A stretch of DNA of 64,000 nt, from contig CAIIXF020000010.1 in NCBI GenBank assembly GCA_903813345.2, positions 23,231,740 to 23,295,739 of the forward strand, in the 5' to 3' direction. This DNA comes from Owenia fusiformis (Eukaryota > Annelida > Polychaeta > Sabellida > Oweniidae). How positions within the stretch are numbered: position 1 is the first letter of the stretch; each line of letters opens with the position of its first letter. Below, piece by piece: positions 7,801-48,710 of the stretch. The position numbers were made by a program, and so were the translations under genes. The notes under the pieces are model-generated. The model saw only the letters and a program-made list of their open reading frames with translations, ran no database searches and was not told where the DNA came from.

Positions 7801-9673
7801 TCATATCAAACTATTAAAGAGAATGTGGGTAGGAGTACTTTACTTACAGTGCAGTTCAAGCCAGGCTTAGCAGTACAGGTGACAGCAACCTCATCTCCAT
7901 ATATACAATTTATGGTGTAACCTGGACATTCTATGCAATCAGGACCAAGTAAGTTGCACTGTACGTTACTAGGGCACTTTGTAATATGACTCCAGTCTGT
8001 CCTGTTAGGTCCCTTAGTTGTTGTTGTTATTGTCTCTGTGGTGGAACTTAAGGTTGATTCTATAGTTTGATTGATAGCACTTGTTAGTGTAGATGTTTCA
8101 TCTGTGGTGGTAATATCGGCTGAAAATTAAGGTATGTTTATGCTCAGCACAATATGGTTTCGAAAATAAGTTACAGTATATCATCATAATAATAATATTT
8201 TGCAAGAGTAATGATGAAGTGTTCAGTGGTACAAATTTACAAATAGATAGTGTACATATAAGGACCTAGCTTCATTTCCATTTGACAATATGCTGTGTTA
8301 CTTTTTATAGTGTACTTTACTACTTATTGAATTGTTATAATGCTTATTTTTGGGATGTTAAGTTTCCTAAAATTGATAATTGTGTGCAGGGAATTTCCTG
8401 TTTTTGCCCACAGGAGGGACATAATGATCAATAGAGTGAATTCTCAGGAAATTCAGTCAATTGGATATAGTCTATATTTACAAGGCCATAGCCAGCAATT
8501 GTCATGGGGGTACAATTTTTAAGGTTTGCATCGCTGGGAAGAAAGCCCAAATAAGGGGTACGGGGTTCACCTCCGGAAATTTGTAGATAACATTGTATAG
8601 TCCATTTCACTGCTTCATTTCGTCAGTAGAACGGCAAAAATAAGAAATTGGGAGACCATTGTGCAATAATATATGGAAAAGTATATTCATAATGTACATG
8701 AATGACATTTGTATATTTCAAATTTTTTAGTTTTTTGTGCAATAAGCCTGTGCCGTCTTGTAATTTGAAGAATTTCAGCCATGTTAATCTTATTGAAAAT
8801 AACATGGCAGAGAAACATCCAAATATAAGAGGCCACACACTTTATAAGCCAAACTAGAAGCAATCCAAGATATACAAATGTCATTCATGTAGATTATGAA
8901 TATACTTTTCCATATATTATTGCACAATGGTCTCCAAATTTCTTATTTTTGCCGTTCTACTGACGAAATGAAGCAGTGAAATGGACTCTAATACTGTATG
9001 GTGCATTCTAAGCATTTCAAACTATAATCCTCACCTCGGCAAATCATGCCCGGGAAATCATGACTCATTTACTTATGGACAAACTCCAAACTACAGTTGG
9101 GGACATAAATAAATGACAGGTGGATTTGCTTAAGTGAGGATTTCCCATGTTAAAAATAAGAGAATTTACAAGAGGCCATACATCAGTGGATGAGATTATA
9201 CAAAATGTAAAATATACAAATTTTAAGGGATATATATCTAGACAATATTTGAAATTATGGGCTTTCAGAACACCATAATTAGGAAATGGTGATCGAAAAT
9301 CGACCTGTCATTTATTTTTGTCCCAAACTGTACATAGTCTTGGAATCAGATAAATGTACAACAATGTCCATTGATAAATTTATATCATTCTGCACTGTAG
9401 AAAATACAAAAGTCGATATGCAACCGTCCCTCAAAAATTCACAACTGGTTTTAGCTGAGTTTATTTTCGTTTCAGTATTTCCTGACAACAAATTAACAAA
9501 ATTAGCCAGGTTTTAACAAAAAATTGTACAATTAATCGAAATACTACAACTACAAATACACACAATAGTCAAAAAAATATTTTTGTTTATGTATACAAAC
9601 CATCTGTTGATGACCAAAATGCAAGTAAGAGTAGTAAACACGAATAATATAGCTCCGATTTATTCTTCCGCAT
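1677..9673 (-). CDS. TM2D3: TM2 domain-containing protein 3 (Almondex orthologue), 5 exons
   Basis: Exons on the minus strand: 9601-9673, 7848-8119, 6982-7156, 4545-4620 and 1677-1845. They total 765 nt in phase, or 254 residues plus stop (human TM2D3 is about 247). Every junction has GT-AG borders. Residues 1-24 are a signal peptide with a Leu-rich core; about 27-62 are Thr/Ser-rich; about 65-180 hold the conserved Cys-rich ectodomain; about 190-254 form the TM2 domain with two membrane helices, the DRF motif at 208-210 and the family's GP-x-DG-x-LYI tail. The string GGFGADRFYLGQWREG is diagnostic of TM2D3 rather than TM2D1/2. An in-frame TAG 24 bases upstream supports the start. In Drosophila the orthologue acts in Notch signalling near gamma-secretase. 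Introns are filled with transposons. Confidence 0.93.
3282..4158. mobile_element. Non-autonomous hAT-like element
   Basis: TIR TAGTGGTGTCAA against TTGACACCTCTA, flanked by an exact 8-bp duplication GTATATAG (3274-3281 and 4159-4166), the hAT signature. Both subterminal regions carry repeated AACCGGTTAACCGG. There is no open reading frame of note. It is nested inside the mariner-type MITE. Confidence 0.88.
3740..4055. repeat. 134-bp tandem repeat inside the hAT-like element
   Basis: Units starting CTGACACTTGAAAAACAAAC begin at 3740, 3874 and 4008, the last partial. Units one and two are about 90% alike. Confidence 0.85.
4545..4620 (-). CDS. TM2D3: TM2D3 exon 4 (juxtamembrane)
   Basis: A 76-nt exon with acceptor TTTTTTGCAG and donor GTGACA. 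It encodes HRTFKKRRKCNWTSGYRWST and then TLIL, equivalent to the human NRTF...CNWTGGYKWSTAL block. A decayed duplicate lies at 1560-1602. Confidence 0.92.
4621..6981 (-). other. TM2D3 intron 3, with a small MITE-like insertion
   Basis: No coding frame of note. At about 5948-6200 a stretch begins GGCGGATTCAGGGG and ends near CCTGGATCAGCGGC with C-runs before it. This resembles the inverted ends of a short MITE. Confidence 0.45.
6982..7156 (-). CDS. TM2D3: TM2D3 exon 3 (second Cys cluster)
   Basis: Acceptor CTTTTTCCTTTTAG and donor GTAATA. It encodes ICRFCYQTEPWEHTC and CTVKQHILCLG, matching the CRFCWQ and CTVRDHVHCLG blocks of human TM2D3. It ends one base into a codon. Confidence 0.92.
7157..7847 (-). 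other. TM2D3 intron 2
   Basis: Splice sites at both ends. I see no repeat or gene inside. Confidence 0.7.
7848..8119 (-). CDS. TM2D3: TM2D3 exon 2 (Thr/Ser-rich linker, first Cys cluster)
   Basis: Acceptor TTTTCAG and donor GTAAGTA. It encodes a Thr/Ser-rich stretch, then CPSNVQCNLLGPDC and further Cys residues ending in GLNCT, aligning with the ectodomain of vertebrate TM2D3. Confidence 0.9.
8599..8987. mobile_element. Palindromic foldback element, copy 2
   Basis: Left arm 8599-8720 (AGTCCATTTCACTGCTTCAT...) and right arm 8870-8987 are nearly perfect reverse complements, about 115 bases each. Between them is a 150-base spacer centred on GCCATGTTAATC...AATAACATGGC. The core matches copy 1 at 660-1050. 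The near-identity of the arms suggests recent insertion or gene conversion. It sits in TM2D3 intron 1. Confidence 0.85.
9601..9673 (-). CDS. TM2D3: TM2D3 exon 1 (signal peptide)
   Basis: Encodes MRKNKSELYYSCLLLLLAFW followed by SSTD, a short basic start and a hydrophobic core typical of a secretory signal. The donor is GTTTGT. The exon ends one base into a codon, which fits the two-base start of exon 2. An in-frame TAG lies just upstream. Confidence 0.8.
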
Positions 9674-10059: not shown

Positions 10060-11145
10060 ATTCAGTCACTTTCTGTTTATACAGCCATTATCTATTTATT
10101 TATTTATACAGTCACTTTCTGTTTACACAGTCACTATCTGTATCGTGTTTTTGGTTTGTTATATTCTTTTGGTTGTTTTTAAGTATGCCATTAACAAATG
10201 TCTCATACTTTGATTTTGGGTCCTGTTTAGTGATTGATTAAATCCTGAGAGCAATTTTAGGTCAATAGATGGGTTTGGGCTCTCTACCCCTAAAAGTATA
10301 GTCTCTGCCTTGTGGAGCATAAGTTCACGATCTTCCTGATATAATTCACAATCAAAGATATAATGTTGGACTGTCTCTGCCCGATTACAGTGCTCACATA
10401 GATTGGAAATGTCAGTTTGAACTTTTGCTAGATGGTGATTCAGCTTTGAGTGACCTGTTATGAGTTGGTTTATTTTGCAGAATTCTGTTCTATTGCTCTC
10501 ACAGAGATTATTTTGTACATCTACAGTCTCTATAATCTCTTGGATGAATTTAACTTTTGTAGAATTGTCATAAAGATTCTGCCATTTTTTCAAGGCAGTC
10601 TTTTTAATGGTTCTGTAGACCTCCTCTTTGCTTTGTTTCATAGAGGTTATTGGCAGGGTCGCTGCTTCCGCCACTGCTTCCTTGGCATATGTGTCGGCTA
10701 ATTCATTGCCTTGAATTCCGAGATGACTTGGCACCCAGTAGTAGGTTAATACATTACAGCTTGCACTCAGGCAGTGGACCAAATACCTAGAATTTTCTAT
10801 GCATTGAATTTCAGACCTGGGTTTGCTACTTCTGAAAGTACTTAAAAGTGCAGGTTGGCAATCGCCAAAGATGTGAATTTCAGAATTGTTAATAGGTAAA
10901 GTGTGCAGGAAATCAAGTGCAAGGTGTAAAGCATGAACCTCCCCACTAAAGTTATTGCTTTTCGCACTGACTGCTTTTTTCAAGCAAACAGGATCAGACT
11001 TTGTTCCGGCTAGAAAAATGATCGCGCTAGACCCTGTTGGTCCTGGATTAGTCAAAGTTGAACTGTCAGTGAAGACAATCACAGATTTATTGTTCAATGT
11101 TTTTATCTTTTCTTCAATATAGAAAACAATCCTCAGCTATGAAAA
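10060..11145 (-). mobile_element. 5'-truncated RNase H-bearing LINE
   Basis: Only the 3' part of a non-LTR retrotransposon is present: an RNase H domain, a C-terminal zinc-finger-like tail and a 3' tail made of short repeats (10060-10140, units like GTCACTTTCTGTTTA). Similarity to a LINE frame runs up to about 11140, where the insertion stops. A 3' RNase H domain points to the I/Jockey group of clades. Confidence 0.75.
10159..11097 (-). CDS. LINE RNase H / C-terminal domain, N-terminally truncated
   Basis: An open frame of about 312 residues. RNase H fold residues are all visible: D11 in VFTDSS, E53 in SGEVHAL, D79 in IFGDCQPAL and D135 in GNELADTYAKEA, plus WVPSHLGIQGN. Around residue 230 a CEHCNRAETVQHYIFDC motif forms the usual C-C-H-C knuckle. 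The endonuclease and reverse transcriptase are absent, so the copy cannot mobilise itself. The first listed codon is TTG; the frame continues a little upstream, so no true start is present. Confidence 0.8.
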   Translation of the reverse strand: MNNKSVIVFTDSSTLTNPGPTGSSAIIFLAGTKSDPVCLKKAVSAKSNNFSGEVHALHLALDFLHTLPINNSEIHIFGDCQPALLSTFRSSKPRSEIQCIENSRYLVHCLSASCNVLTYYWVPSHLGIQGNELADTYAKEAVAEAATLPITSMKQSKEEVYRTIKKTALKKWQNLYDNSTKVKFIQEIIETVDVQNNLCESNRTEFCKINQLITGHSKLNHHLAKVQTDISNLCEHCNRAETVQHYIFDCELYQEDRELMLHKAETILLGVESPNPSIDLKLLSGFNQSLNRTQNQSMRHLLMAYLKTTKRI

Positions 11146-20592: not shown

Positions 20593-23500
20593 GTAAGCAC
20601 TCATCTCAGTGATCTCCACAGGTTTTTTTCTCAAATGGGTGCATAATTCTCATTTTCACAATTCAGACCAAAATTGGTCAAAATATGCCAATTTCCACGA
20701 TATTTCTCATTTCCAAGTAGGTGCAAATGGATTTTCAGGTGGAAATTTTTCAGGGGCAAATGGATTTTGACCTTGATGATGTAATGAAAAATATTCTATT
20801 TTATCAACATTGTATAACCTTGTGTAATGTTTTTCTGTACTTTTCTGGCACATCATGTAACTCTGCATCTAATATGTTAATATGTAGTTTTTATGTTAAC
20901 CAAAATTACTTTTTTGGGTTCAAAATTTTCAAATTCAACCCCCCTTGGAATTTAAAAAATCGAACATCCCCCCCAAAAAAAAGAATGATGATACCATTAT
21001 TACTCAAAAGATGGCATGTGTTGCAATGAAAAGCATGCATTCACCCGGGCATTCACCTCACAACAGTGCAGTTCTAAAATAGATGTACATGTAGTTATCA
21101 CAGTTGCCATTTTTTTTCTTCTGATAATTATCTTAATCAACTTTAAACTAGATTTCTGTTGACGTCAAGGGTAGTTATAAATGTGACACCATTTTGGCAG
21201 ATAGACAGATTTACAGATGGAGTAGAGGGAGATTGAATTGGCCTAAAAATAAGATTTAAAATGTTTAAAATGTCATCTAGTTTGTTGTGTTGTGTAGTTT
21301 AAGTAAATAAATGAATTATATTTGCACTCTTGACAGGATTATGACAATGAATAAAGCTGAGAATCATGGATATGTAACATAGTAATGTGATTTTCAAATA
21401 TTTTGTAACTATATTCCCAGGCCTCAAGGCTAACTATGAAGCTAAGATATAATTAACTTGTAAATTTTCAATTTTCACCAAATATTAGTTGATGGATTTT
21501 GTTCATATTTGGTGGAAAGATGTATATTGATAAATAGTTTTACGCAAAAAAAAAAAAAATTTTTCATTCTAAACCAAAGTAATTAATATTATTGTTTGAA
21601 ATTTTGGTAGTATATTCGCAACCTCTATCTTTTTCACATATATTCCGTGTTTTTCATCCTGATCCCCAGGGGCCGTGTATGGGGGGTCAGGAAAACAGAA
21701 ATTTTTGCTAATTTTTAGATCTTTCTGAAGTATAGCTTTATTATACTCAAATGAAAGGCAATTAAGAGTAGATTGCAAATATTGTATCTTTTTTCTGACT
21801 CGAGCCTCGTAAAATTCAAAATGGCCGTCTAATGTACGATTTCGCAATAATTTTTCGATCCCTTCAGTATGGCTATATTATACTCAAATTGAAGGAATTT
21901 TGGAGTAGATCACAATTATGGTATTATTTTTCAGATTTGTACCTCAGAAAATTCAAAATGGCTGCTTTGCAGGAATTCGCAATTCTAAAATCTAAATTTT
22001 TCAATTTAAACCAAAGTAATGAGTATAATTGATTGGAATTCGGTAATTGATATTTTGTTCGTTGGGATTTGCTACTCCGCGGAGTTGCCGTTATCTAGTT
22101 TTATATAAGAAACTATGTTCAAATGACTACATGACTATGATCATAGTTTATTTAATGGTTGCTTAGATATCAATTATGGAGTTTTGTAACTAGTAGATAT
22201 TTTGACATATTTGCACCTAAAGGATGAGTCTGGATATATGCCCTTTTGGTCCCTCAGTTAAATGTATGTGAAATATGTTTTTTATTACTGTCCAAGTTAT
22301 ATTTGATAGTACATTTTCATGAGTTTTGATGCATAATTAACCCCCTGCTGAGAATCAAAATAAGTAAATAATCCTAACAGAAAACAAATAATCATTATCC
22401 CGGGTCATTATCAGAGAAAAAACACCAATGGCAACATGAATGACATATAAAGTAGACATAACTTAAAGACCCATGAAGAATTAAAAGTAAATCATGTCTT
22501 TTAAATATAATTTAGGATTTAGTTTTTATTAATTTCCAGCCACTTTAATTTGAAAGGGGAAAAACAAGATGGCTGCCATACTAATCCTTTAATTACATAT
22601 GTTAGAAAATATTTGTAAGCCTTGGCATTTTCAGAAAATAAGCTATTTATCAAAGTCTCTTGATTGCTGACTTAAAATGATATTTTATTTAAAGGTGCAA
22701 CAATGAGTGCAGGGGGGGGGGCATTCAACAATCATCGACCAGTGTCAAAATATATTTAAGTTTGGATATTTCATCAAGACTAATACTCTGGGAGCTAGCA
22801 AACATTTATAAGACATCTCCAGAACAAACGGTTTGAGGCCTGTAATTAGTAGATGTGGGTCTAACATCCCAAAAAAGGCAAGTCTTAAGTGACAAATTTG
22901 GGGCTACCACCAGGGGGCACCTTTTGAAATGCCGCTAAAATTAGTTTTAAATGACATCTCGAGTACATCAATGAAACCTTTGTCAAAATGTTCCTTTGGA
23001 CCCTCTGAAACATTATAAGTCCTTAAGAGTAGCCAATTTTTGGATTTAAGCCATTTCTGAGTGAGTTTAAGGTCACCATGGATCCAGCCACACACAATCA
23101 AAATGCTGTATCAGAGCCTTGTGAACTTGAATATAATGATATTCTGATATATCCATAAAATATGTAAGAAGACCTTTCTTACAAGCCATAATACATCAAT
23201 CTGTTACAACTTAATCCAGAGATATTGAACTTTTTGTCTCAATTTTGATCAGAAATGTACATTTTTAAGCATCTGTTTGTTAATTGTAGCTTCATGCAAA
23301 AGGTGACAGATTAAACAGCTCAAAATAGTATTCCAAGAACATTTCCAAGGTTTGGATGATATTGTAATACAATTTTTATAATGATGAATCACTTTTTTGT
23401 AATTTAAATATGACGTTATAGTGCCCTACCCCTTCAAAATTAAGGAAAGCAGGCATAGTCAATGTCATCAATGTCAAACAACATATACTATGAAGATGCT

Positions 23501-26500
23501 TTGGATGCATTGATTCACTTTCTAGTGCCACATGTTTCCAACTTAATGCTGCAAAATGATTACATTGACTATGCCTGCTTTCCTCTATTTTGAAGGGGTA
23601 AGGGCACTATATAACGTCATATTTAAATTACAAAAAAGTGATTCATCATTATAAAAGCTGTATTACAATATTACACAAACCTTGGAAATGTTCTTAGAAT
23701 ACTATTTTGAGCTGTTTAATCTGTCACTTCTACTGATCTGTCACCTTTTGCCTGAAGCTACGAATGCAAATTAGACGAGACTTAAAAATGTACATTTTCA
23801 GATCAAAATTGAGACAAAAAGTCCAATATCTCTGGATTCAGTTGTCATAGATTGATGAATTATGGCTTGTAAGAAAGGTCTTCTTACATATTTTATGGAT
23901 ATATACAGAATATCACATCATTTTGAGTGATATCATTTTTATAGCTGAGTTGATAGCAAATATCAACATGAGTGAGCAAAGCGAATGAGTGTTGATATTT
24001 GATATCTACGAGGCGATAAAATGATATCACGAGAAATTATGTGATATTGGGTTTATCCCATGATTACAATCACCTTGTGATGTTCTGATCCAATTTCCAG
24101 GACATTGGCAGACAATATAAACTAGAAATTAGAATATCAATTGAATATTTGAAACACTTTATTTTAACAATTAAAAGTATATAACATGATATTATTATAT
24201 AGTTCGTCATAAATACCATTTTTTAATAGTTAGTTAGCAGCCTTCTAATCAAATTACATGTATATACACAATCGTAATTCAATACACCAATGAAACTTAA
24301 AGAGAATAAATTAACGGACCTATTTTCTCAAAAGAGAATAAATTATCTGACCTAATTTCTAACAATATTGTGACACGAAATGCAAATGTGATATCACACG
24401 GATATGCGTGAGATAAACGATATCACACGCATATGAGTTTGATAAACGATTTTCTGGAAAATATCACACGGATTTCAATAATATCAGAAATATCAATAGA
24501 TGTTATTGTACAGATAACACATTAATCGTGGGATATATCAGAATATCAAATATATTCAAGTTCACAAGGCTCCATCCTCCGATCACAGGGCTTCAAAATC
24601 CAGAATATCTTCTTTCTTTTTACCCCCTGCTATAACCAAGTTGGACGCGCCCGATTAAACTGAATCACGTGATCTAATTATGCGCCGATGACGTATACAT
24701 GATTGCTGTCGCAGTGTTGCGACAGCCAATCAAATTGCGAGTTCTTAATCGGGGAAATGCTAACTGCTTATAGCAGGGGGAAGAAGGAGGTACGGATTCT
24801 GGACACCTGCTTAGGAGGATGCAAGGCTCTGATACAGCATTTTGATTGTGTGTGGCTGTATCCATGGTGACCTTTAACTCACTCAAAAATGGGTTAAACC
24901 CCAAAATTGGCTACTCTTAAGGACTCATAATGTTTCAGAGGGTCCAAAGGAACATTTTGACAAAGGTTCCATTGATGTACCACCTGGTGGTAGCCCCAAA
25001 TTTGTCACTTAAGAGTTGCCTTTTTGTGACCCACATCTACTAATTACAGGCCTCAAACCTTTTGTTCTCGAGATGTCTTATAAATGTTTGCTAGCTCCTA
25101 GCATAACGTATATTTTCATTATCTACAAAGAAACCCCCTGGGTGAACATTATTTTAGCTGATAACGTGGTTGATCCTAAAAATCTATAAGTGGGACTCCC
25201 TTTATAGAAGCGTTGAACTGAATTTACACTTCTAAATGCTGAAATTGATAGTTTATCCATACATTTTAAGAAAATAGGTATATAAAGAATTACTCAGATG
25301 CGAGTTGGTAGTTACCAGTTTCGCAACCAGGTGGCTGATTCGGGGGGAATAACATGCACACTATGCAGACAGAGCCTGTGGGAAATATTGGGTGCGGAGC
25401 AAATGAGCGGAGGGTGCGGAGCTAACGGTCATTTTTGAATTTAAATTTGGGATATTTCTGAAACTAAGCCGTTTTGGGACTTCAAATATACCAAGATATG
25501 TGTATTTGACACCAAATATCAATACAATTGTGAAAATAGTAGCGCAATTCATTCTATAGCGACGCAGTGTGCCTTCAACCTTTCCCAGACCTGTAGATTC
25601 CAAATATGACATCAGTTTGACTTAATTTTGAATTTTTAATGACGTAAATCAAGATTTTTCTACTAGCATCTAGGCTATTTGGGGGGGGGGGCATAAGGGC
25701 TTGATATTTGACTAACTACAGACATACTAGTTTCATCAGTCAATATATTTTTGTTTCTATATGGAATTCGTGTACTTTTTCATTGAACAGGTTTTGGACC
25801 ATTCGGTAACCACTATGTGAATGCCAGTTGGCTTGCAGTCCAAGAACTGGAAAAACTTGGTCTCAGAGAAGATATTGAGCTGATAACCTTCGAGATACCT
25901 GTAAAATATGCCTCAGTTAAGACAATATTACCTGAACTATGGGAGAAACACAATCCTATGGTAAGTGATCTAGGTTTTTCTGGGAATAAATATATTTTGT
26001 AAGAAATCAAAACACAGCTGCATGTACTATGTACATTTTTGATTTTGAAATCAATATTTGAGGTTCTGTTCATTCCTCAAGTGGAATATAGAAGTATTTC
26101 GTAAAATTACAAAACAATTATTGATTTAGAGGTCTACATATTGAAATACATGTTATAAAAACATAAATTTCTTTTTATATTTGATTTAAATTTAACCATT
26201 TTACATGTACACACAGTAGTGTACATTGTCCTCTCAAGCATTAAAACATTGGGTTAATACTTTTCCCTGTTAATAATGAAAAAGTTATGTGCTACTCTGC
26301 CAAACATCTTTTTGCATGGATGTGTTTTCATTTATTGTTAAAGCAGGTAACATTTTGATTTAGCACCACCAAAAATCATGACACTAGCTCATGTTCATAT
26401 TGTTCTGAATTCAAAGCAATTTGCCCTTCAAAAAAATGGAATCATCAAGGATTATATAAGGACCCATTGAGTATGTACTTGTGCATTTACTTAACACCAC

Positions 26501-35582: not shown

Positions 35583-38500
35583 TATGTATGTATATCTTTA
35601 TTGCCCTTTATGAAAAGGAGATACATGTATACAGTGTACAATGAAAATAATGCTGATATAACATTAATGTTAAATGAACATAGAATAAAAATATATACAA
35701 TATATAAAACACACTTTATACGACTACGTTAGATGAGTGCTAACCATCTTCCCCAAGGTCGATGTAAGCATCTCATCTAATGAACCACAGACGATATAAG
35801 ATGCTACCGCTACCTCATCGTCCAATTACAACCCTCAATGAGATAATTTATGCAGAGATCATAATTGAAAAAGTAAAAAAGGTTAGGTTAAGAAAGGTTA
35901 AGTATGTACATACAATTTTAATACACTTATCTCATTAGTTGAGTGCAAACCATCTTCCCCAAGGTCGATGTAAGCATCTCATCCACTGAACCACAGACGA
36001 TATAAGATGCTACCGCTACCTCATCGTCCAATTACAACCCTTAATGAGATCATTTTGTGCAGAGATCATAATTAAAAAGTAAAAAAGGTTAAGTATGTAC
36101 ATACATTTTATACATTATATAAAACACTTATCTCATTAGTTGAGTGCAAACCATCTTCCCCAAGGTCGATGTAAGCATCTCATCCAATGAACCACAGACG
36201 ATATAAGATGCTACCGCTACCTCATCGTCTAATTACAACCATTTGAGAGATCATTTGTTCAGAGATCACAATTGACAGTAGATATAGATTAAGTATGTAC
36301 ATATGGTTTATACCTTATGTATATAAAATATATAGATAGATATAAAATACTTGACGCATTAGTCAACAGATTTTAACCCATGGTTTGCATTAAAACGCAT
36401 CCGAAATCATATAAGTCAGTTATGAGTTGCATTGCAAGCACGAAGCACGGAGGTGGTATTGCTCTTGCACGATAAGTGAAACCCCTCTCAAAAAATCTAA
36501 AGACCGGGGATCATTTCTAAAGTTAATCCCTAAAATGTTGTTAATATTCATCTCTATACCAAACTTTTGGCAGTGCTCATTCAGTTTACGTCTAAAGGGG
36601 GTATAACTATTTGCTGTGCACGTTAACATAAAATGGATGACATTTTCCTGTTGAAACGTATTACACATATAACATAATTTTGACTTGTTTTCTCCGCCTC
36701 GATATTTTGTTCCTAGAGTATGTTCGTTTGTCAGAAGTTTAACCATAATTTTGCAACCACCGAGGGCAACAGGGAACTTTCTGGCAACACACCACCATAT
36801 ATTTGGACTCAAAGACCTAAAATCATTCAACCTAAATAGTTCAAGACCAGTATACATAATTGATCTAACAAACGTCCTCTGTATTTGTGCTGTCGAAAGT
36901 TCTGTAAAAACAATTTTCTTCCACCTTTGTTTGGTGATTCGAGTGTTACAGTATAGCATATCGAGAATGTATTTATCCAAGTTGTATTTTATAGCACATA
37001 TGAGCATGTTACGGATAGGAGAAAACACATCAAAATTTGTTTTCATATACGACAATTTTATCAACCGTATCGTGAATATGTGTTTGTAAATATTTGAGCA
37101 ACGGAGTTGTAAAATACTAAAGAAAAACATCATTCGGAGGAAATCTATGTAAAAGTCTATATCAAGTAACCCAAGAGGAAATGTTGAGACTGGATTGCTA
37201 GCAGATTGGGAAAGGGATTGAATCCTCCGTCCAATGCCTCTCTGTACTATGTTTAATTGTTCAATATCTTTTTGATGATAATTGATTACCGGAGCACCGT
37301 ATGTCATACAGGGTATGGAATAAGTTTTGTATATCTGACATGCTGAAGTGGGAACAAGGCCTCCGCATTTACTTCCAATTCCCAGAAGGGCATTAAACTG
37401 AGATTTTCCTTTTTTGCATTTATCATTTACATAATTACTGATGTCATTATCTACAGACAGTGGTATACCAACGTGTTTAGCATAATTAGATTTTTCGATA
37501 GGTACACCTCCAATGTTTAGCTTTTGAGTGGCTCCCAATTCGATTTTACTGTTAAAAACAAGATATGTGCACTTTTGTGGATGAACTTCATATCTCCATT
37601 GATTGCTATGTTTAGTAAGTGCGTCCAATAGGACTTGCATATTTTGAAATGAGTTTGATAGGATACACATGTCATCAGCGTAGCATGGACTGACACAGCT
37701 GGTGTCTCCTATGGTGGACCCGATACTTAGTTTAGTCATGGTTTCAATTATGTCAGACATGTATAATTGATAGAAGAGCATTGACAGCACGCCACCTTGA
37801 TGTACACCTTGGAGAATAGGAAATGAATTTGAGCGCGCACCACCTACTAGAACTGCGCACCTATAGTGTTTATATAAATTGTACAATATGTTCCAAAGTT
37901 TTCCAACAACGCCACTTTTGTGGAGCTTAAAAAATAGACCATCTATCCACACAGAGTCGAAGGCTTTGCGAATGTCTGTTATTGTAATGACTACCATTTT
38001 ACCCTGTTCGACATTATCTGAAATAGTCTCCTGCACCAATAAGGAAGTGTGAACAGATGAACATTTTTCAACCGATGCCCCTTGTAACTTTGGTATCATT
38101 TTGTAGATCGGAACTTTCAAGTAAGTTAATAATATATTGTCAAAGAGTTTACGAAACATTGTCATGAGGGTTATTCCTCTAGAATTATCTTTTATGAGAG
38201 GATCTTTGCCACTTTTTGTGAGAGGGATCATTACGCCTACACAGAAATTATTTGGGATGTGCTCTGATTGAATAATTGAATTAAATAAGAGAGCAATGGA
38301 TTCATACATTTTGCTTCCGGCATATTTTAAATGTTCAGCACTGATTTGGTCATAGCCACAAGCACGCTTACAGTGAAGTGCTTTAACTGCACTGGTGACA
38401 TCTTCATTGCTAATGCTTACTGCCATACCATCAATTTTGTCATCCTCGTTACCTTTAATAATTGTTCTGATTTTGTTCTCAATGGTGGTTTTAAACTCAG

Positions 38501-39191
38501 AATCGAAATTTGGCTTATTAAGTGGGGTGGCAAGTTTCTCAAAATGACATTTCCATTGATTTCTTATCTCGTCGGCGTCTGTTATAAGTATGCCATCGTC
38601 TGACAAAATAGGACTTACAGATCTCTTTGATGTTCTGCGATGTTTATTAACGAGGTACCAATAGAACCGTTGGTCAGTTTGTTCCGATGTATAGAGTTTT
38701 TCTAGTTCCTGTTTCTCGTACTCAATTTGGGCTGCGTGATAGGTTTTGGAGAATAACTTTTTTGAATCTTTATATTGACTACGCGCTGGATCGGATATAT
38801 CACGTGACCTACCCTGAGACACCCATACACGCCATTTTGTCTTTTTATCTTTTGCTAAGACAGTTAAAGTTGAATTCCAGAACGGCTTTACATATTTTAA
38901 AAATCTCTTTTTTGGTATATGGGCGTTAGAGGTGAGTGTCCAAATATCTAGTAATTTATCTAAAAAATACTCAATCTCATTGCCATTCAGAGACCTTTTG
39001 GACATGATAGAATGTAGCTCGGCTACAATATCATTACATTGTAAGTTAATTGAACTAGTGTATGATTCCAAGATATCGTCATTGCTGAGCTTATCCCACG
39101 CATGTCCTATAGGCGCTTGTATACTCGACCGTCTGTTTATCTTAACATCAAAATTTAAAATCGTTAAAATCGGTAGATGATCTGATCTGAT
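35583..39191 (-). mobile_element. 5'-truncated LINE (EN/RT type, no RNase H)
   Basis: Bounded by an 8-bp TSD GACTATTG. The 3' end, at the low coordinate, is AATAAAGATATACATACATA, an (ATAC)n-type tail. It contains a 930-codon open frame beginning inside the last endonuclease motif (SDHLPI), then reverse transcriptase, then a C-C-H-C knuckle, and a 3' UTR of three ~200-bp repeats. The RT layout resembles CR1/L2-like clades; the exact clade needs a tree. Both flanks are halves of an older host duplication (35340-35530 versus 39200-39670). Confidence 0.88.
35690..36360 (-). repeat. Three ~200-bp tandem repeats in the LINE 3' UTR
   Basis: AACCATCTTCCCCAAGGTCG starts near 35744, 35948 and 36150. 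Each unit contains a GACGAT...ATCGTC stem enclosing GAGGTAGCGGTAGCATC on the minus strand, the best-conserved part. Possibly a reverse-transcriptase recognition hairpin. Confidence 0.9.
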
Positions 39192-39212
39192 GACTATTGG
39201 AACAGACTTCAC
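36420..39212 (-). CDS. LINE ORF2 (end of endonuclease, RT, zinc knuckle)
   Basis: 930 residues, uninterrupted. Residues 10-14 SDHLP are the last catalytic motif of an APE-type endonuclease; everything before that is missing. The RT core includes DIRKAFDSVW, GVHQGGVLS, and YADD at 511-514, followed by HVGIPLS and the SIPCMTYGAP block. Residues 847-865 (CYMCNTFQQENVIHFMLTC) form a C-C-H-C knuckle. Residues 1-7 and the nominal start codon come from flanking DNA and its duplication, so this frame has no native start. The lack of stops over 2.8 kb indicates a young insertion. Confidence 0.88.
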   Translation of the reverse strand: MKSVPIVIRSDHLPILTILNFDVKINRRSSIQAPIGHAWDKLSNDDILESYTSSINLQCNDIVAELHSIMSKRSLNGNEIEYFLDKLLDIWTLTSNAHIPKKRFLKYVKPFWNSTLTVLAKDKKTKWRVWVSQGRSRDISDPARSQYKDSKKLFSKTYHAAQIEYEKQELEKLYTSEQTDQRFYWYLVNKHRRTSKRSVSPILSDDGILITDADEIRNQWKCHFEKLATPLNKPNFDSEFKTTIENKIRTIIKGNEDDKIDGMAVSISNEDVTSAVKALHCKRACGYDQISAEHLKYAGSKMYESIALLFNSIIQSEHIPNNFCVGVMIPLTKSGKDPLIKDNSRGITLMTMFRKLFDNILLTYLKVPIYKMIPKLQGASVEKCSSVHTSLLVQETISDNVEQGKMVVITITDIRKAFDSVWIDGLFFKLHKSGVVGKLWNILYNLYKHYRCAVLVGGARSNSFPILQGVHQGGVLSMLFYQLYMSDIIETMTKLSIGSTIGDTSCVSPCYADDMCILSNSFQNMQVLLDALTKHSNQWRYEVHPQKCTYLVFNSKIELGATQKLNIGGVPIEKSNYAKHVGIPLSVDNDISNYVNDKCKKGKSQFNALLGIGSKCGGLVPTSACQIYKTYSIPCMTYGAPVINYHQKDIEQLNIVQRGIGRRIQSLSQSASNPVSTFPLGLLDIDFYIDFLRMMFFFSILQLRCSNIYKHIFTIRLIKLSYMKTNFDVFSPIRNMLICAIKYNLDKYILDMLYCNTRITKQRWKKIVFTELSTAQIQRTFVRSIMYTGLELFRLNDFRSLSPNIWWCVARKFPVALGGCKIMVKLLTNEHTLGTKYRGGENKSKLCYMCNTFQQENVIHFMLTCTANSYTPFRRKLNEHCQKFGIEMNINNILGINFRNDPRSLDFLRGVSLIVQEQYHLRASCLQCNS

Positions 39213-39305
39213 TTCTCGGCTTTTGGTATTTTAGTTGTACACAAACTTAGCAGGTCATAGGTTAGAGCTAACACAAAGTTCTAAAAAGCAAGCTCTTTTG
39301 CTGTG

Positions 39306-39670: not shown

Positions 39671-41410
39671 GTGTGGCATAATATGGAATGTGGTGAATGC
39701 CACATATGATATGAATATTGGGAAATGGGTCCCTTATAAGGAATTATGATGGTCTAGTAAGAAACTGATAGAATTAGAATGTGTTTTTATTTTATTTTAA
39801 TCTACTCTCTGTAGTGTATGGAATATATGTTGGATGGCGTTGCAATAACAAAAATATATGAAAACCGTGCATTTTTTATATTTATAGTTAGTTTAGTTTA
39901 GTTTAAAATAGTTTATTTTTGTGTCACTGATATTACAATATACATATAAAATACATAATAAAAACAACATTTTGTAACATCACCAGCCGGTGCCGACTTA
40001 TGAGACACAGTATACATTATATCTGAGTGTCACCCATTACTACCCCCAATGGGCAGCTTGGGACAACATTCAGACAGAGACATATATCTCTGGTAAAGAT
40101 TTATACATTAAAACCAATGATATAAATTCACAACTCTGATTGATCAGTTTGGCAAGTTCAACCTTGATTTCAGAGTGCAAGATAATCTAGGCATGATGGG
40201 AATGGAATAACTATTGTATTGTCTTCATATTCCTGGCCTATCCTTGATGACTGCCCATTCCCAAATTAGTTAAATGCAAATGCTGGTTTTCATCTTGATT
40301 TACAAGAGTTTTACAAGGTTTCAGTTGTTTGAAGATTTGGAATGACATTGGAAATCGAATTGGACTTCCTGACTTCATCGTGGATAACCATGAATCATGG
40401 CAATATATTGTAAGCCAAGAGATGCGATTAGAAGTGACATAGACGGATTTTATACAGGTAAATGAAATACATGACCCGTACAATTTCAATATTCATCCGC
40501 TTGGCTGGTTCAGTAGTCAACCAAGCCTATCCACAGGGTCTAGTCATCAGTTAACGCTGGACTTATTACCAATCCGAACATGAACTGCAAAAACAATTTT
40601 ACAAAAGGATGATTACGAAACGATCAAACTATGGAATTAAATCACAATTAAACTGGAGTGCCGAAACCGAAAATTAATTACCAGCTTATCGGATTAATTA
40701 TATATTACATATTTATAATGGATTTAAAAAGATCTCAGGAACATGTACACAATTTGCTCAAACATGATGTAAGTACCGGAACATTGAAGTATAATTTGGG
40801 TTTATAATTAAAAAGGGCTAATTAAACATAAATAGCTGTAAATAAATATATGTAAATTATACAACTTAGCTTAGACCTGGATGAAAACCTTCTTTTCCGC
40901 AATAATTGAAGCTGGAAAAATAAAGTCGTTCATGTGAAATATTAGAATGATTTAATAATTATATATTATTTGTTTTTCAAAATATGTTGCATCTAAGCTC
41001 AAATTTGGAACTTGTTCTGTAAACGCAGAAGATTCAAGATCTGATATTTACAGAAAACGGAGTTAATGTTCAATCTTTTGATTATACAAGTTGCATATCA
41101 AAACTTATTGTATGGCTACTGCTTTGACGGACATTCAAGTTCAAGTAAAATAAAAATCGAGATATTTTTTTCTAAAAATCGAGATTGTTTGAAAAAATCG
41201 TGGTAAAAAGCATCTTTTTCTAGAAAATCGGGATTTCTTTAAAAAATAATCGGAACAAGATTTACTTTAATAGGAACGAAGGGTTCCAATGTACCCGAAA
41301 GATATAATTTTTTTGTTTTATTTTGTAAATCGTAAGTGTGTCTATTCAAAGAATTTTGATGTTCACATTGCCATCTCTTGCCCGAATATTTATTTGAGTG
41401 GTTACACCCC
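39671..41410. other. Intergenic region, no gene seen
   Basis: Only short spurious frames. A degenerate run of (TCTA)AAAATCGAGAT repeats lies at 41150-41265. Confidence 0.5.
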
Positions 41411-41429
41411 CCTCCCGGGGGTAACCGGA

Positions 41430-41663
41430 CGACTCATCCCTGGACAACTCATCCCCTGGACAACTCATCCCCTAGACAACTCATCCCCTGGACAACTCAT
41501 CCCCTGGACAACTCATCCCCTAGACAACTCATCCCCTGGACAACTCATCCCCTGGACAACTCATCTCCTGGACAACTCATCCCCTGGACAACTCATCCCC
41601 TGGACAACTCATCTCCTGGACAACTCATACCCTGGACAACTCATCCCCTGGACAACTCATCCT
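41430..41663 (+). repeat. Left 16-bp monomer array of A1, about 14-15 copies
   Basis: Monomer CAACTCATCCCCTGGA, head to tail, with a few single-base variants (CCCTAGA, CTCCTGGA). Because 16 is not a multiple of 3 it is open in several frames, which produces artefactual 16-residue protein repeats. Confidence 0.95.
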
Positions 41664-42110
41664 TTGGCATATATTATTCAAATGATATTTAAATGTTTTG
41701 GTTATCATTATGATCAGTTTTAAGTTTCAAAAACATATATTACATGAACACTGGTACTAAACTCGATAACATTGAAAACGGATCGTTTCGGTAGCAAAAT
41801 GTCAGAGCCTTAAGGGTACGATTTTTCTTTTTTCCTTATATCACCGGTTGAAGGCAGAATGCCAACAACATTTTTATCACAAACGTGTGTCAGGATGTAG
41901 ATGTTTGCAAACGAATACATGTAGTTCAGATCTACAGAAGACAACACGATCGTCAATTTAATACCTCACTTTTGTTACGTAAATGGAACTTCAATAATGG
42001 TTAAGATCTGCTCTCTAACTCCTTCCATTTACATAACAATATTGAGGTATTAAAGCGACGATTCTGTTGTCTTTACTATTTGTTCACAAACACGTATATT
42101 TTCTTAAATA

Positions 42111-43703
42111 CAGGGTGGTCCGAAAAAGGTGAACCCCTGCAACCGGTTATATTTTCCTTGGTAACTGGTCAACTCGTACCCAAGACAAGTCGTACCCAAG
42201 ACAACTCGTACCCAAGACATCTCGTACCCAAGACAACTCGTACCCAAGTATATATTTTGTTTTGAATCAAGCGTTGGACTGGGAATGTGAATAGATATAC
42301 ATATTATAATTGTAACATACTGTTCAGAATAGTTTAAAGTTTGAAGAAGAATTTTCGGAAGAAATTGATTTAATTTTGTGACATTTTGAGCTGAGTGTCA
42401 ATTTATATTGACTATTATTTTATATTGGTCACAAATTCAGGATGTTTGAGTGAAGAGACATATGTTTATTCCACATATTCATAATATCATTTTTCAAAAT
42501 ATTGTATGTTTATGAGTGTTTGGAACAAGTGTCAGATCTCATGTTGTAATTATATATATTTACATATATGTTTGACAAAATAATGTTGAGAACAAGCGCT
42601 TCAAGCACTTCTTTTATTTAATAAAAAATGCTTTACTGATCCATTGAGAAAAAAATTCTTCTAAATTCAAAAAAATATTGAGGATTATTTGATTCACATT
42701 ATAACATGAAAGCATTACAAACTCGATTTTTTCCCTAATATGCACCATAATACTGAAAATAATCTTGGGTACGAGTTGTCTTGGGTACCAGTTGTCTTGG
42801 GTACGAGTTGTCTTGGGTACCAGTTGTCTTGGGTACGAGTTGTCTTGGGTTCGAGTTGACTAGGAAGCTTTTCCTTAATACATGCATGAATTTGCTCATA
42901 TCATCACATCTTGTAGAGAAAGGTTTAAAAAAAATTGTTGACACCATAGTTTATTTTATTCTCAGTCTTGAAATTCGAAGAAATTACAAGACTTAAACAA
43001 ACATGCCTCAAATTAGATGTTGTGCAAAATTTTACCAATGTGATTGACGGATATTGTTGATACACATTAGATGATCTTAAAAAAGCTTTCAGTGAGAGAT
43101 AAGTTAAAACCCTACCATATGGCAAATGGGACACTATTTGAGCAGAAAACACATTTCACACTTTTATTGACCATTTTGAAGCTGTTTTAACCATTCAACA
43201 GTTTAGAGGCATGTTACCTACACAAACGGGTAGAGGTCAGGGGCAAAGTTACCCTTTGTGACCCAAAATCTGAGGAGCCCTTCATAAAAAATCTTACAAA
43301 AATCAAAAGGAAATCTAATATTCAGTGTTTTGAGCCATATTTCATTAGAATTGGTCCATGATTAATGAAGATATTTTAAGACCATTTAGGGTTATGTTGC
43401 GATTTCACTGGAAGATGTTCTCGTCTTTGGAAACATTGAACATTTCTTTTGATCACAATAACTTTGCAACTAACAGAGGTAGGATGCTTATTTTTACATC
43501 ATATTGTGTGGGATCCAAAACCAAACAAAGTCAGAAAACATTGGGTTTCCCAGACTCCGGCTTAAAAGATTTCCATGGGAAGATTGTTGAAGGATTGAAG
43601 AATCGCAGATACTGAAGTTTACATTTTACCAATTTTCAGTGATGTTGCAGGTAATAAGGGAAGTATATCCGGTTGCAAGGGTTCACTTTTTTGGGCCAAC
43701 CTG
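42111..43703. mobile_element. Mariner-type MITE (inside X1)
   Basis: Ends CAGGGTGGTCCGAAAAAGGT and the mirrored GGCCAACCTG with TA on both sides (42109-42110, 43704-43705). TIRs run about 45 bases including GGTTGCAAGGGTTCAC. No transposase. Interrupted by A2. Confidence 0.87.
42160..42868. mobile_element. Satellite-ended transposon A2 (innermost)
   Basis: Ends GGTAACTGGTCAACTC and the complement of GCTTCCTAGTCAACTC, with an exact 8-bp TSD TTTTCCTT (42152-42159, 42869-42876). Terminal arrays of a 16-bp monomer CAACTCGTACCCAAGA lie at 42168-42255 and, inverted, at 42768-42858. The monomer shares 12 of 16 bases with that of A1, and the extreme ends are also alike. It is the same family, a different subfamily. 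Confidence 0.9.
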
Positions 43704-44280
43704 TATATGATACTGACACATGATTGTGATGAAAATGTAATCATGTTAGTCTCAGCTACAACACATGAAATAAGGCAAAGAGAAAAATCGTACATTCAAG
43801 AATATTTTGTTACCGAAGCGATTTGATTCGGTAAAAAGCATAATCGAGTGGAGTACAAGTAAACAAAGACTTTCTGGAGGGGCAATCTGGAATTTTTTTA
43901 AAAAACTATTATATTTTCAAGGAAATAATCAACCAATTAATCTGTAATTTGTTTTGTAAATATTAACCTTTCATTTTTCTTTTAATACACAATTTCCCTA
44001 TTATATTAACATTGTTTGTTGTTCACAGTTCAAATATTCTTTAACATTATTTATAGATGAAGTTACTGAAGTTCATGTTTCAAAATTATGCAGAGAGAAA
44101 ACTTCATTTTTTGTCTTGAAATATTAATGATATAAGGACAAAAGATGAAAGTTTTAATGGCACCGTTTGACTGTTTGACGGTTTTATTTGTGTCAATACA
44201 GTGAAAAATAATATTTAGAATGATCCAAGGTGTATTCATTAAATATTTCTTTTCCACACTTTACAATTTGGCTTCGTGTG

Positions 44281-44395
44281 ATAATGGATGAGTTGTCCAG
44301 GGGATGAGTTGTCTTGGGGATGAGATGTCCAGGGGATGAGTTGTCCAGTGGATGAGATGTACAGGGGATGAATTGTCTAGGGGATGAGTTGTCCG
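44281..44395 (-). repeat. Right 16-bp monomer array of A1, about 7 copies
   Basis: Same monomer read on the minus strand (GGATGAGTTGTCCAGG), more degenerate than the left array. Confidence 0.92.
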
Positions 44396-44408
44396 TAAGC
44401 CCTCCCAG

Positions 44409-44719
44409 GATGCACCCCTATTAGAGGAAATATCTTTTATTTCTTCAGTATCATTTATATTTTTATTTCTGTACATGACAAACATAGAAATAACATAAGT
44501 TAATTATTTTAAGAAAGATTAATGCAGATAGCTCTTATGAAACTTGACTTGACTTGAAATGGGTACCTCAAGGGACAACATTATGAGCTGTTTTCATACA
44601 ATATTTGATATACTTATAGCGTTTTCAATAGTCAATGACAGGTGGTGATAAAATCTATGTGAAGAGCTTGGGAGTGGACCTAGTGATCCTGGAAGAATTG
44701 AGGTCTCTACCACGCGGTA
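44409..44719. other. Right flank of the transposon nest
   Basis: No gene or repeat recognised. Confidence 0.4.
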
Positions 44720-47789: not shown

Positions 47790-48710
47790 AGGTACGGGTT
47801 TTCCTTATTTCACGCGTTGTAGGCAGAATCCCCACGACGTTTTTTCTCACAAACGTGTATCAGCATCATATGTTTTAGAAAAAGCACATGTTTGCGAAAA
47901 AATAGCTCAGAAGACAACAGAATCGTCGATTTAATTTCTCACTTAAGTTACATAAACGGTTTGGGTTAAAAGTGCAGATCTTAACCGTTTTTCGAAAACC
48001 GTTTATGTAACTTAAGTGAGGAATTAAATCGATTCTGTTGTCTTCTGAACTATTTGTTCGCAAATATGTACATTTTTTTAAACATATGATACCAGTACAA
48101 TGTCGTTGGAATTCTGCCTGCAACGTTTGAAATAAGAATATAGTCCGGAGTAGGGATACTAGTTAATACTAGTTGATACTAGGTAATACTTGGTTATTTG
48201 GTTTTCTGTATAAAAAAGCTTTTCTCCTTTTCTGTCCTGTCGCAGCGCCATCTAGTGTTTGATAAATGAATCAAGGTTTATTCTCGATAGGGTAAGTACT
48301 AATCTATCAGGAAACATTTACAAGTTTGGTTAGAAACAGAATTTTTATAGATGGCGGAGTGATTTTTGAGACTATGTAGAGCAGAATAATTTTCTGAAAC
48401 AGGTAGCTTTACGGTGGTAGCTCTCTCCAGATTCAGTTATCTCAAAAACGGTGTGGTCACCGTATGCTTATTTTGTAACGGCAAGCTAGACAAGACTCCA
48501 ATGAACACTGGGCACTGTTTCGCTGAGCAAGATCTGTGCCCATGAATATATTATGAAATGAAACGTTATAATGGTCGTCAATGGGATTTTTTACTGCAAT
48601 CTTGACCCTAAGGAAAAAAGAAAAATCGTACCTTCGATGTTCCGACATTTTGTTACAAAAACGAACCGTTTCGGTAACCAGCGTAATCGAGTGGATCACC
48701 AGTGGCTTAG
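47790..48710. mobile_element. Foldback element X, copy 2
   Basis: Begins near GGTACGGGTTTTCCTTATTT, and its right end at 48600-48710 (GAAAAATCGTACCTTCGATG, ...AATCGAGTGGATCACCAGTG) mirrors the left end of X1. It includes a tight palindrome at 47885-48075 with arms of about 75 bases. The left terminus is truncated. Confidence 0.75.

Follow-up and report, generated by a model that had tools for sequence, protein, structure and literature searches.

In a window of 64,000 nucleotides of the Owenia fusiformis genome (C10:23231740-23295739; 498 Mb in 525 contigs were searched), two foldbacks, A1 and A2, were found to belong to one nest of transposable elements. In all likelihood (probability about 0.85) both are non-autonomous and come from two sister families of Mutator (MULE) transposons of the foldback type. 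Both groups are real transposons that are present in hundreds of copies in the genome. As judged from the sequences between their ends, the autonomous partner of the A1-type elements is likely to be a FLYWCH/MULE transposase. Nested transposons and MULE foldbacks are already known; what is added here is this likely transposase, by which orphan foldback arrays of 16-bp units would be tied to a Mutator enzyme of the same genome.

The original prediction had placed A2 inside a mariner-type MITE, the MITE inside the foldback X1 and X1 inside A1, and every level was found where it had been put (Table 1). The limits given for A1 (41419-44400) proved to be one base off. Its 8-bp flanks, which had been read as CCTCCCGG/CCTCCCAG, are equivalent to the target-site duplication (TSD) CTCCCGGG/CTCCCAGG with its one mismatch, whereas the 8-bp TSD of A2 is exact on both sides, as had been stated. 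The MITE possesses both the TA duplication and matching TIRs, from the start of which we take it to be of the mariner superfamily. The 16-bp terminal arrays were present at both ends of A1 and of A2.

Table 1. Features of the nest, outermost level first, in window coordinates
Feature	Position	Strand	Remark
Host-repeat left flank of A1 (level 0)	41263..41419	.	joined-flank query; many matches begin at query 41-47 (~41263)
A1 left TSD, CTCCCGGG	41412..41419	.	
A1, non-autonomous foldback; left end GGTAACCGGACGACTCAT, right end (inward) GGCTTACGGACAACTCAT	41420..44401	+	
A1 left array, 16-bp unit GGACAACTCATCCCCT x14.8	41427..41662	+	
X1, palindromic core beginning CTGGTACT; inner hairpin ~41935-42078	~41751..43859	.	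also in A1-type copies elsewhere
X1 proposed 6-bp flanks	TGAACA 41745-41750 / TAAACA 43860-43865		provisional TSD
MITE left TA	42109..42110	.	
Mariner-type MITE, TIRs starting CAGGGTGGTCC	42111..43703	+	split by A2
A2 left TSD, TTTTCCTT	42152..42159	.	
A2, 709-bp non-autonomous foldback; ends GGTAACTGGTCAACTCGT ... GCTTCCTAGTCAACTCGA (right, inward)	42160..42868	+	sister family
A2 left array, 16-bp unit CAACTCGTACCCAAGA x4.9	42170..42248	+	
A2 right array, 16-bp unit TCTTGGGTACGAGTTG x6.0	42763..42858	-	
A2 right TSD, TTTTCCTT	42869..42876	.	
MITE right TA	43704..43705	.	
A1 right array, 16-bp unit GGATGAGTTGTCCAGG x6.8	44286..44394	-	
A1 right TSD, CTCCCAGG	44402..44409	.	
Host-repeat right flank of A1, continuing level 0	44402..44610	.	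joined-flank query
X1 relative, ~70%, without 16-bp arrays	47799..48703	.	X1 found outside A1 too

A search of the genome with the element ends, which had been suggested as a check, bore out the mobile nature of these sequences. The terminal left motif GGTAACNGGNCNACTCRT occurs in 337 exact copies, against none for the reversed control in the same 498 Mb, and three types of end or more can be told apart among them (A1, a third type and A2). The A1 left end (94 copies), the A1 right end (89) and the third-type left end (68) likewise had controls of 0. The two ends of an element differ: the left one starts with GGTAAC, the right one, read inward, with GGCTTAC, GCTTCCTAG or GGTTTCTAG. The terminal motifs that had been claimed to match between A1 and A2 do agree in 15 of 18 bases of the consensus left ends, which have the 16-bp register in common, but within a single element the two sides are not identical.

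End pairs were collected from 69 sources (the window and L001-L068) without a TSD filter; the sampled loci are skewed to C1, owing to the order of the pattern search, and to best-scored matches. A partner within the fetched stretch was absent for 14 of the 61 distinct left ends, among them third-type ends, which the pairing script had given to the A1 type first. Two third-type elements, L019 and L030, had exact TSDs in an earlier list. The 47 pairs showed no TSD mismatch in 38 cases, one in 7 and five in 2, so that 8-bp duplications with at most one mismatch were present in 45 of 47. In the two deviating pairs an 8-bp duplication appears after a slide, of one base in the inner element of L053 (leaving one mismatch) and of nine bases on the left in L013 (by eye from the printed flanks). 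When left and right flanks were deliberately mispaired, none of 2162 combinations was exact and 7 had one mismatch. The earlier list (49 rows, filtered for at most 2 TSD mismatches) comprised 47 elements after removal of L048 and the inner L053 element, and 42 of these were in register. Each of the eight TSD positions matched in 40-42 of the 42, the ninth base in 9, which is chance level. The target is weakly palindromic, with T at position -2 (28/40), A at TSD position 7 (28/40) and A at position +2 (30/40), the flanking positions being counted outward from the TSD. For the elements of the window and L001-L068, the TSD length thus falls within the 8-11 bp given for MULEs in the pertinent passages of PMC6446971, and the composite TIRs of variable tandem units that define foldbacks are present as well. 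Two A1 end pairs at C5:25958206 and C5:25968772, both of 754 bp and in the same direction, lie 10,566 bases apart and possibly represent a segmental duplication.

These data also bear on the objection, raised with the original prediction, that the arrays might be plain satellites, in which 16-bp units expanded locally and resemble element ends by chance. Uninterrupted runs of more than 1 kb of the A1 unit do exist at C10:3932561-3933900 and C5:612040-613171, possibly as outgrowths of a foldback array, and such arrays can seed satellites, as is described for Tetris in part of PMC4079207. However, the end-bearing copies carry a motif of which the reversed control has no copy, are flanked by 8-bp duplications and, in the case of A1 and A2, have empty counterparts elsewhere. 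The outcome that was to overturn the prediction thus did not arise for these copies, and a satellite origin is extremely improbable.

The empty sites back the four-level nest. For A1, a query of both flanks joined with one TSD yielded 47 rows, 2 of which were the window itself; A1 was absent from 20 of the 45 others, in each of which the match runs 20 bases or more past the junction in both directions. A dispersed repeat therefore crosses the A1 junction elsewhere and adds one more outer level to the four that had been proposed. For A2, the MITE from which A2 and one TTTTCCTT had been removed gave 583 candidates, and among the 40 that were scored the A2 point was crossed without A2 in 38 of the 39 other MITE copies (84-92% identity); the exception, at C7:18111194, starts exactly at the A2 point. 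The A1-type copies L028 and L025 contain X1 without the MITE and represent the empty MITE site.

The predicted foldback X1 is indeed present as a palindromic core inside A1, but it was not inserted locally. Its left junction, ACATGAACA followed by CTGGTACT, is common to the A1 of the window, L004, L013 and the remnant in L002, and occurs slightly altered in L025 and L028. As the A1-type copies with the common junction have different TSDs where these were read, X1 must have entered an A1 ancestor once and travelled along afterwards. In L004 the 6-bp duplication proposed for X1, TGAACA, is clean, whereas the window has it in degenerate form; derivatives that lack part or all of the core are common (L012, L002, L007, L029). 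The idea that X1 is merely the interior of A1 itself was ruled out by its relatives outside A1, namely the one in the window and 36 of the best 40 X1 places in the genome, none of these 36 having an exact A1 end within 4 kb (mutated ends would escape this count).

It had further been claimed that the insertion order is read directly from the sequence. Nesting alone is too weak for this and is no clock, because composites jump as units, as A1 with X1 did, and it yields only a partial order. The claimed succession does agree with the divergence within the families. The A1 of the window is 71.5-79.8% identical to other A1 copies (matches of at least 600 bases) and its A2 90-97% to the 39 best A2 copies; the A2 interior is 2.1% off the majority sequence, as compared with 1.0-5.8% for 31 of 32 other copies and 21.6% for L036. 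Pairwise divergence drops inward from 20-28% for A1 over 8-16% for the MITE to 3-10% for A2; these are family distances, taken from the best-scored copies in the case of MITE and A2, and they back an order, not insertion dates. The divergence, rather than nesting alone, supports the order A1, MITE, A2 as far as can be judged from such comparisons. At the locus, A1 already bearing X1 would probably have entered the dispersed repeat, after which the mariner-type MITE would have entered the A1 core and A2 the MITE. Alternatively, some levels may have arrived ready-made, as MITE plus A2 or as A1 plus X1 plus MITE, and the nest would then be no proof of A1-family activity before the MITE and of A2-family activity after it. 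That A1 and X1 travelled as a composite and that nesting leaves the order partial speak for such an arrival; yet a second A1 with this MITE was absent among 10 A1-type elements, nearly all other scored MITE copies are without A2, and divergence falls inward, and we consider ready-made levels rather unlikely and the stepwise order the better reading.

Whereas the outermost and the innermost element had been thought to be of one family, A1 and A2 are better described as sister families, because their left ends agree only to the extent mentioned above, the A2 interior gave no match longer than 61 bases in the 10 A1-type elements (the best one being of 28 bases, E 3.7e-4), and the transposase enclosed by A1 ends shares about 58% identity with those located next to A2-like ends. 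The reverse nest also occurs. In L053:50-2134 (C9:32055847-32059480) an A1-type element (125-1499) has inserted into an A2-type element, within the left one of its 16-bp arrays; the outer TSD, GGCTATTT, is exact, and the inner one has one mismatch and lies in a periodic array, so that it is the weaker of the two. As this is the opposite of the order in the window, both families must have been active in overlapping periods. It is the strongest support for the repeated activity, before and after two other insertions, that had been proposed, albeit by two sister families instead of one.

An autonomous partner with like ends had been named as a further check. When A1 ends that face each other at a distance below 20 kb were paired, 54 pairs resulted. 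They range in length from 138 bp to 17.5 kb and together make up 0.021% of the genome; six of the seven pairs longer than 3 kb were sampled. L090 and L091, inner pieces of two such A1-ended elements, are coding-like (47-48% GC) and 98% alike. FLYWCH (PF04500) exceeded the Pfam cut-off in both and in L070, L072 and L074, and the MULE domain PF10551 did so in L090 (5.5e-7), L070, L072 and L074. FLYWCH and MULE are in different reading frames in L090, and L090 and L091 contain one reading-frame change each, at different places. A genome search with the L090 protein produced 20 rows at 17 distinct places. The place of the query (C12:1372129) and only two others at 98% (C4:4983914 and C12:6634225) all fall within A1 end pairs, i.e. 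C12:1369957-1374459 (4.5 kb), C4:4971202-4988711 (17.5 kb) and C12:6631751-6635958 (4.2 kb); none of the remaining 14 places does. The C4 copy is the sole independent match, since A1 end pairs had been the source of L090 and L091. It has an open MULE frame of 631 aa, known from its coordinates, and the 1.1-kb piece L092 was read there outside the frame; L092 and two other 1.1-kb pieces (L088, L089) contained no transposase. Outside the A1 end pairs, C4:28566555-28566802 contains a degraded relative, which has stops and reaches 86-91% over short stretches. A search of NCBIfam gave no match. With the query and both copies at 98% lying between A1 ends, two of the three having been sampled there, the partner is likely to have been found in this FLYWCH/MULE transposase. 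L087, an A1-ended stretch of 9.8 kb, was rejected as an autonomous copy because the frames in it are LINE-type. They are enclosed by a further inverted repeat, just under 500 bp long (L087:553-1041 / 8521-9012; 98% over 288 nt, then 93% over 183 nt). One frame, of 1235 aa, has endonuclease and reverse transcriptase domains, and the other, of 360 aa, shows no confident domain.

Relatives of the L090 protein at 54-63% identity are located on C80 and at C12:5760228, C12:4481868 and C7:32944788. The first two, L072 and L074, are 97.7% alike and have an intact 617-aa frame each with FLYWCH and MULE over cut-off, and a weak N-terminal match to the PHD finger (PF00628; 19.2 bits, under the cut-off of 24, E 0.0012), which did not match in L070. 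On the right of both, TRF showed a 16-bp unit (GGTCCGAGTTGACTAG in L072) repeated 6.6-6.8 times, and next to it stands a terminus reading inward GGTATCTGGTCAACTCGG. The first 16 bases of this terminus differ from the A2 motif at one position, and it is A2-like rather than A2. On this side, which was the one read, the similarity between L072 and L074 ends just past the array and the terminus. L070 has a 599-aa frame and a single isolated unit, CCCAAGACAACTCGGACC, with a degenerate one close by. All three loci (L070, L072 and L074) retain the D, D, C..H and E positions, which presumably constitute the DDE transposase motif. A minisatellite of 91-92 bp is situated upstream of the intact MULE frame in L072:1-327 and L074:1-335.

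It may be asked whether the MULE gene is a nested passenger and the true mover another transposase that makes 8-bp TSDs (P/Galileo-like, hAT, Merlin or KDZ). Galileo, according to part of PMC3169594, is a case in which foldback ends go with a P-type transposase, nesting is common, as the LINE frames in the A1-ended L087 illustrate, and the L090 and L091 reads are inner pieces of their elements. On the other hand, A1 ends enclose the L090 copy itself as well as its only two matches at 98% (with the sampling of two of the three as noted), and the related L072/L074 MULE is bordered by a like array and end on the side read. Family searches of the genome gave 10 matches for KDZ and 8 for MULE, the latter missing the A1-linked copies; within ~1.5 kb of these loci there were no A1/A2-type units, the pattern being blind to the variant unit of L072/L074. 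A passenger MULE is accordingly regarded as improbable, and the foldbacks were most likely moved by a Mutator-type enzyme of the same genome, as far as sequence can tell.

What is established is the build of the elements, with their TSDs and empty sites, and the presence of FLYWCH plus MULE genes between or beside ends of like kind; a mechanism can be proposed in which the MULE transposase would act in trans on A1 and A2. It would recognise the terminal motif and the 16-bp units, the tandem units possibly serving as repeated binding sites, and would cut the weakly palindromic target with an 8-bp stagger, thereby inserting the element elsewhere. The length of the arrays might then shift via slippage or unequal exchange. 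Because end motifs, target site, TSD length and intact frames are in hand, the idea that tandem units are binding sites is testable.

In the TU elements of sea urchin, TSDs of 8 bp go with inverted repeats whose outer domain consists of ~15-bp tandem units. By the features tested, the present group can be assigned to the Mutator/foldback elements of the kind of Tm1 from Meloidogyne root-knot nematodes. As described in the passages of PMC3169594 concerned, Tm1 has asymmetric 7-bp outer motifs, GGA and ~14-bp tandem units. Its TSDs are of 9 bp, and its transposase, a FLYWCH-MULE protein of 496 aa, belongs to the Phantom subclass; short gene-less copies are many, those with a transposase few, and nesting was observed. 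The Owenia elements resemble this account in their asymmetric outer motifs, the GGA step, the inverted arrays of short units in variable number, the many gene-less and few FLYWCH-MULE copies and the nesting; they differ in the 16-bp units, the 8-bp TSDs, the frames of 599-617 aa, the other motifs and the weak PHD match in L072 and L074. Phantom MULEs are portrayed in part of PMC6446971 as animal elements with FLYWCH and MULE, TSDs of 8-10 bp and TIRs of up to 613 bp. The N-terminal FLYWCH and the MULE domain are as in Phantom, to which a weak PHD-like finger is added here. Rehavkus, of arthropods and annelids, has a PHD finger, a 9-bp TSD and a minisatellite near an end (same source, in part). 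The minisatellite near the end recalls it, and the sub-threshold PHD match may do so, whereas the TSD is of 8 bp here (see the ninth base above) and FLYWCH is present, of which the Rehavkus passages make no mention. Foldback TIRs with internal tandem repeats, and arrays that can grow into satellite, are features in common with Tetris/Galileo of Drosophila as portrayed in the passages concerned; in contrast, Tetris repeats are ~220 bp long and the Galileo transposase is of P-type, while a MULE was found here. In the literature covered, at the level of titles and abstract openings and with Repbase and subscription papers outside the scope, no account of this 16-bp family was met with. It might even be speculated, although we think it doubtful, that a Rehavkus-type PHD plus a Phantom-type FLYWCH with minisatellite ends marks an undescribed animal MULE clade bridging Rehavkus, as the outgroup, and the true MULEs, with at least four end types in one genome still inserting into each other's arrays.

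Elsewhere in the window, three concentric inverted repeats of 94-95% identity at 22963-24980 (22963-23121/24822-24980, 23147-23255/23796-23904 and 23303-23420/23610-23727) may be another nest. A 936-aa open reverse-transcriptase frame (RVT_1) at 36420-39230 is LINE-like, and a tandem array of ~206-bp units (35729-36318) is close to it. A 325-aa frame with an RNase H domain at 10159-11136 is perhaps a further LINE fragment.
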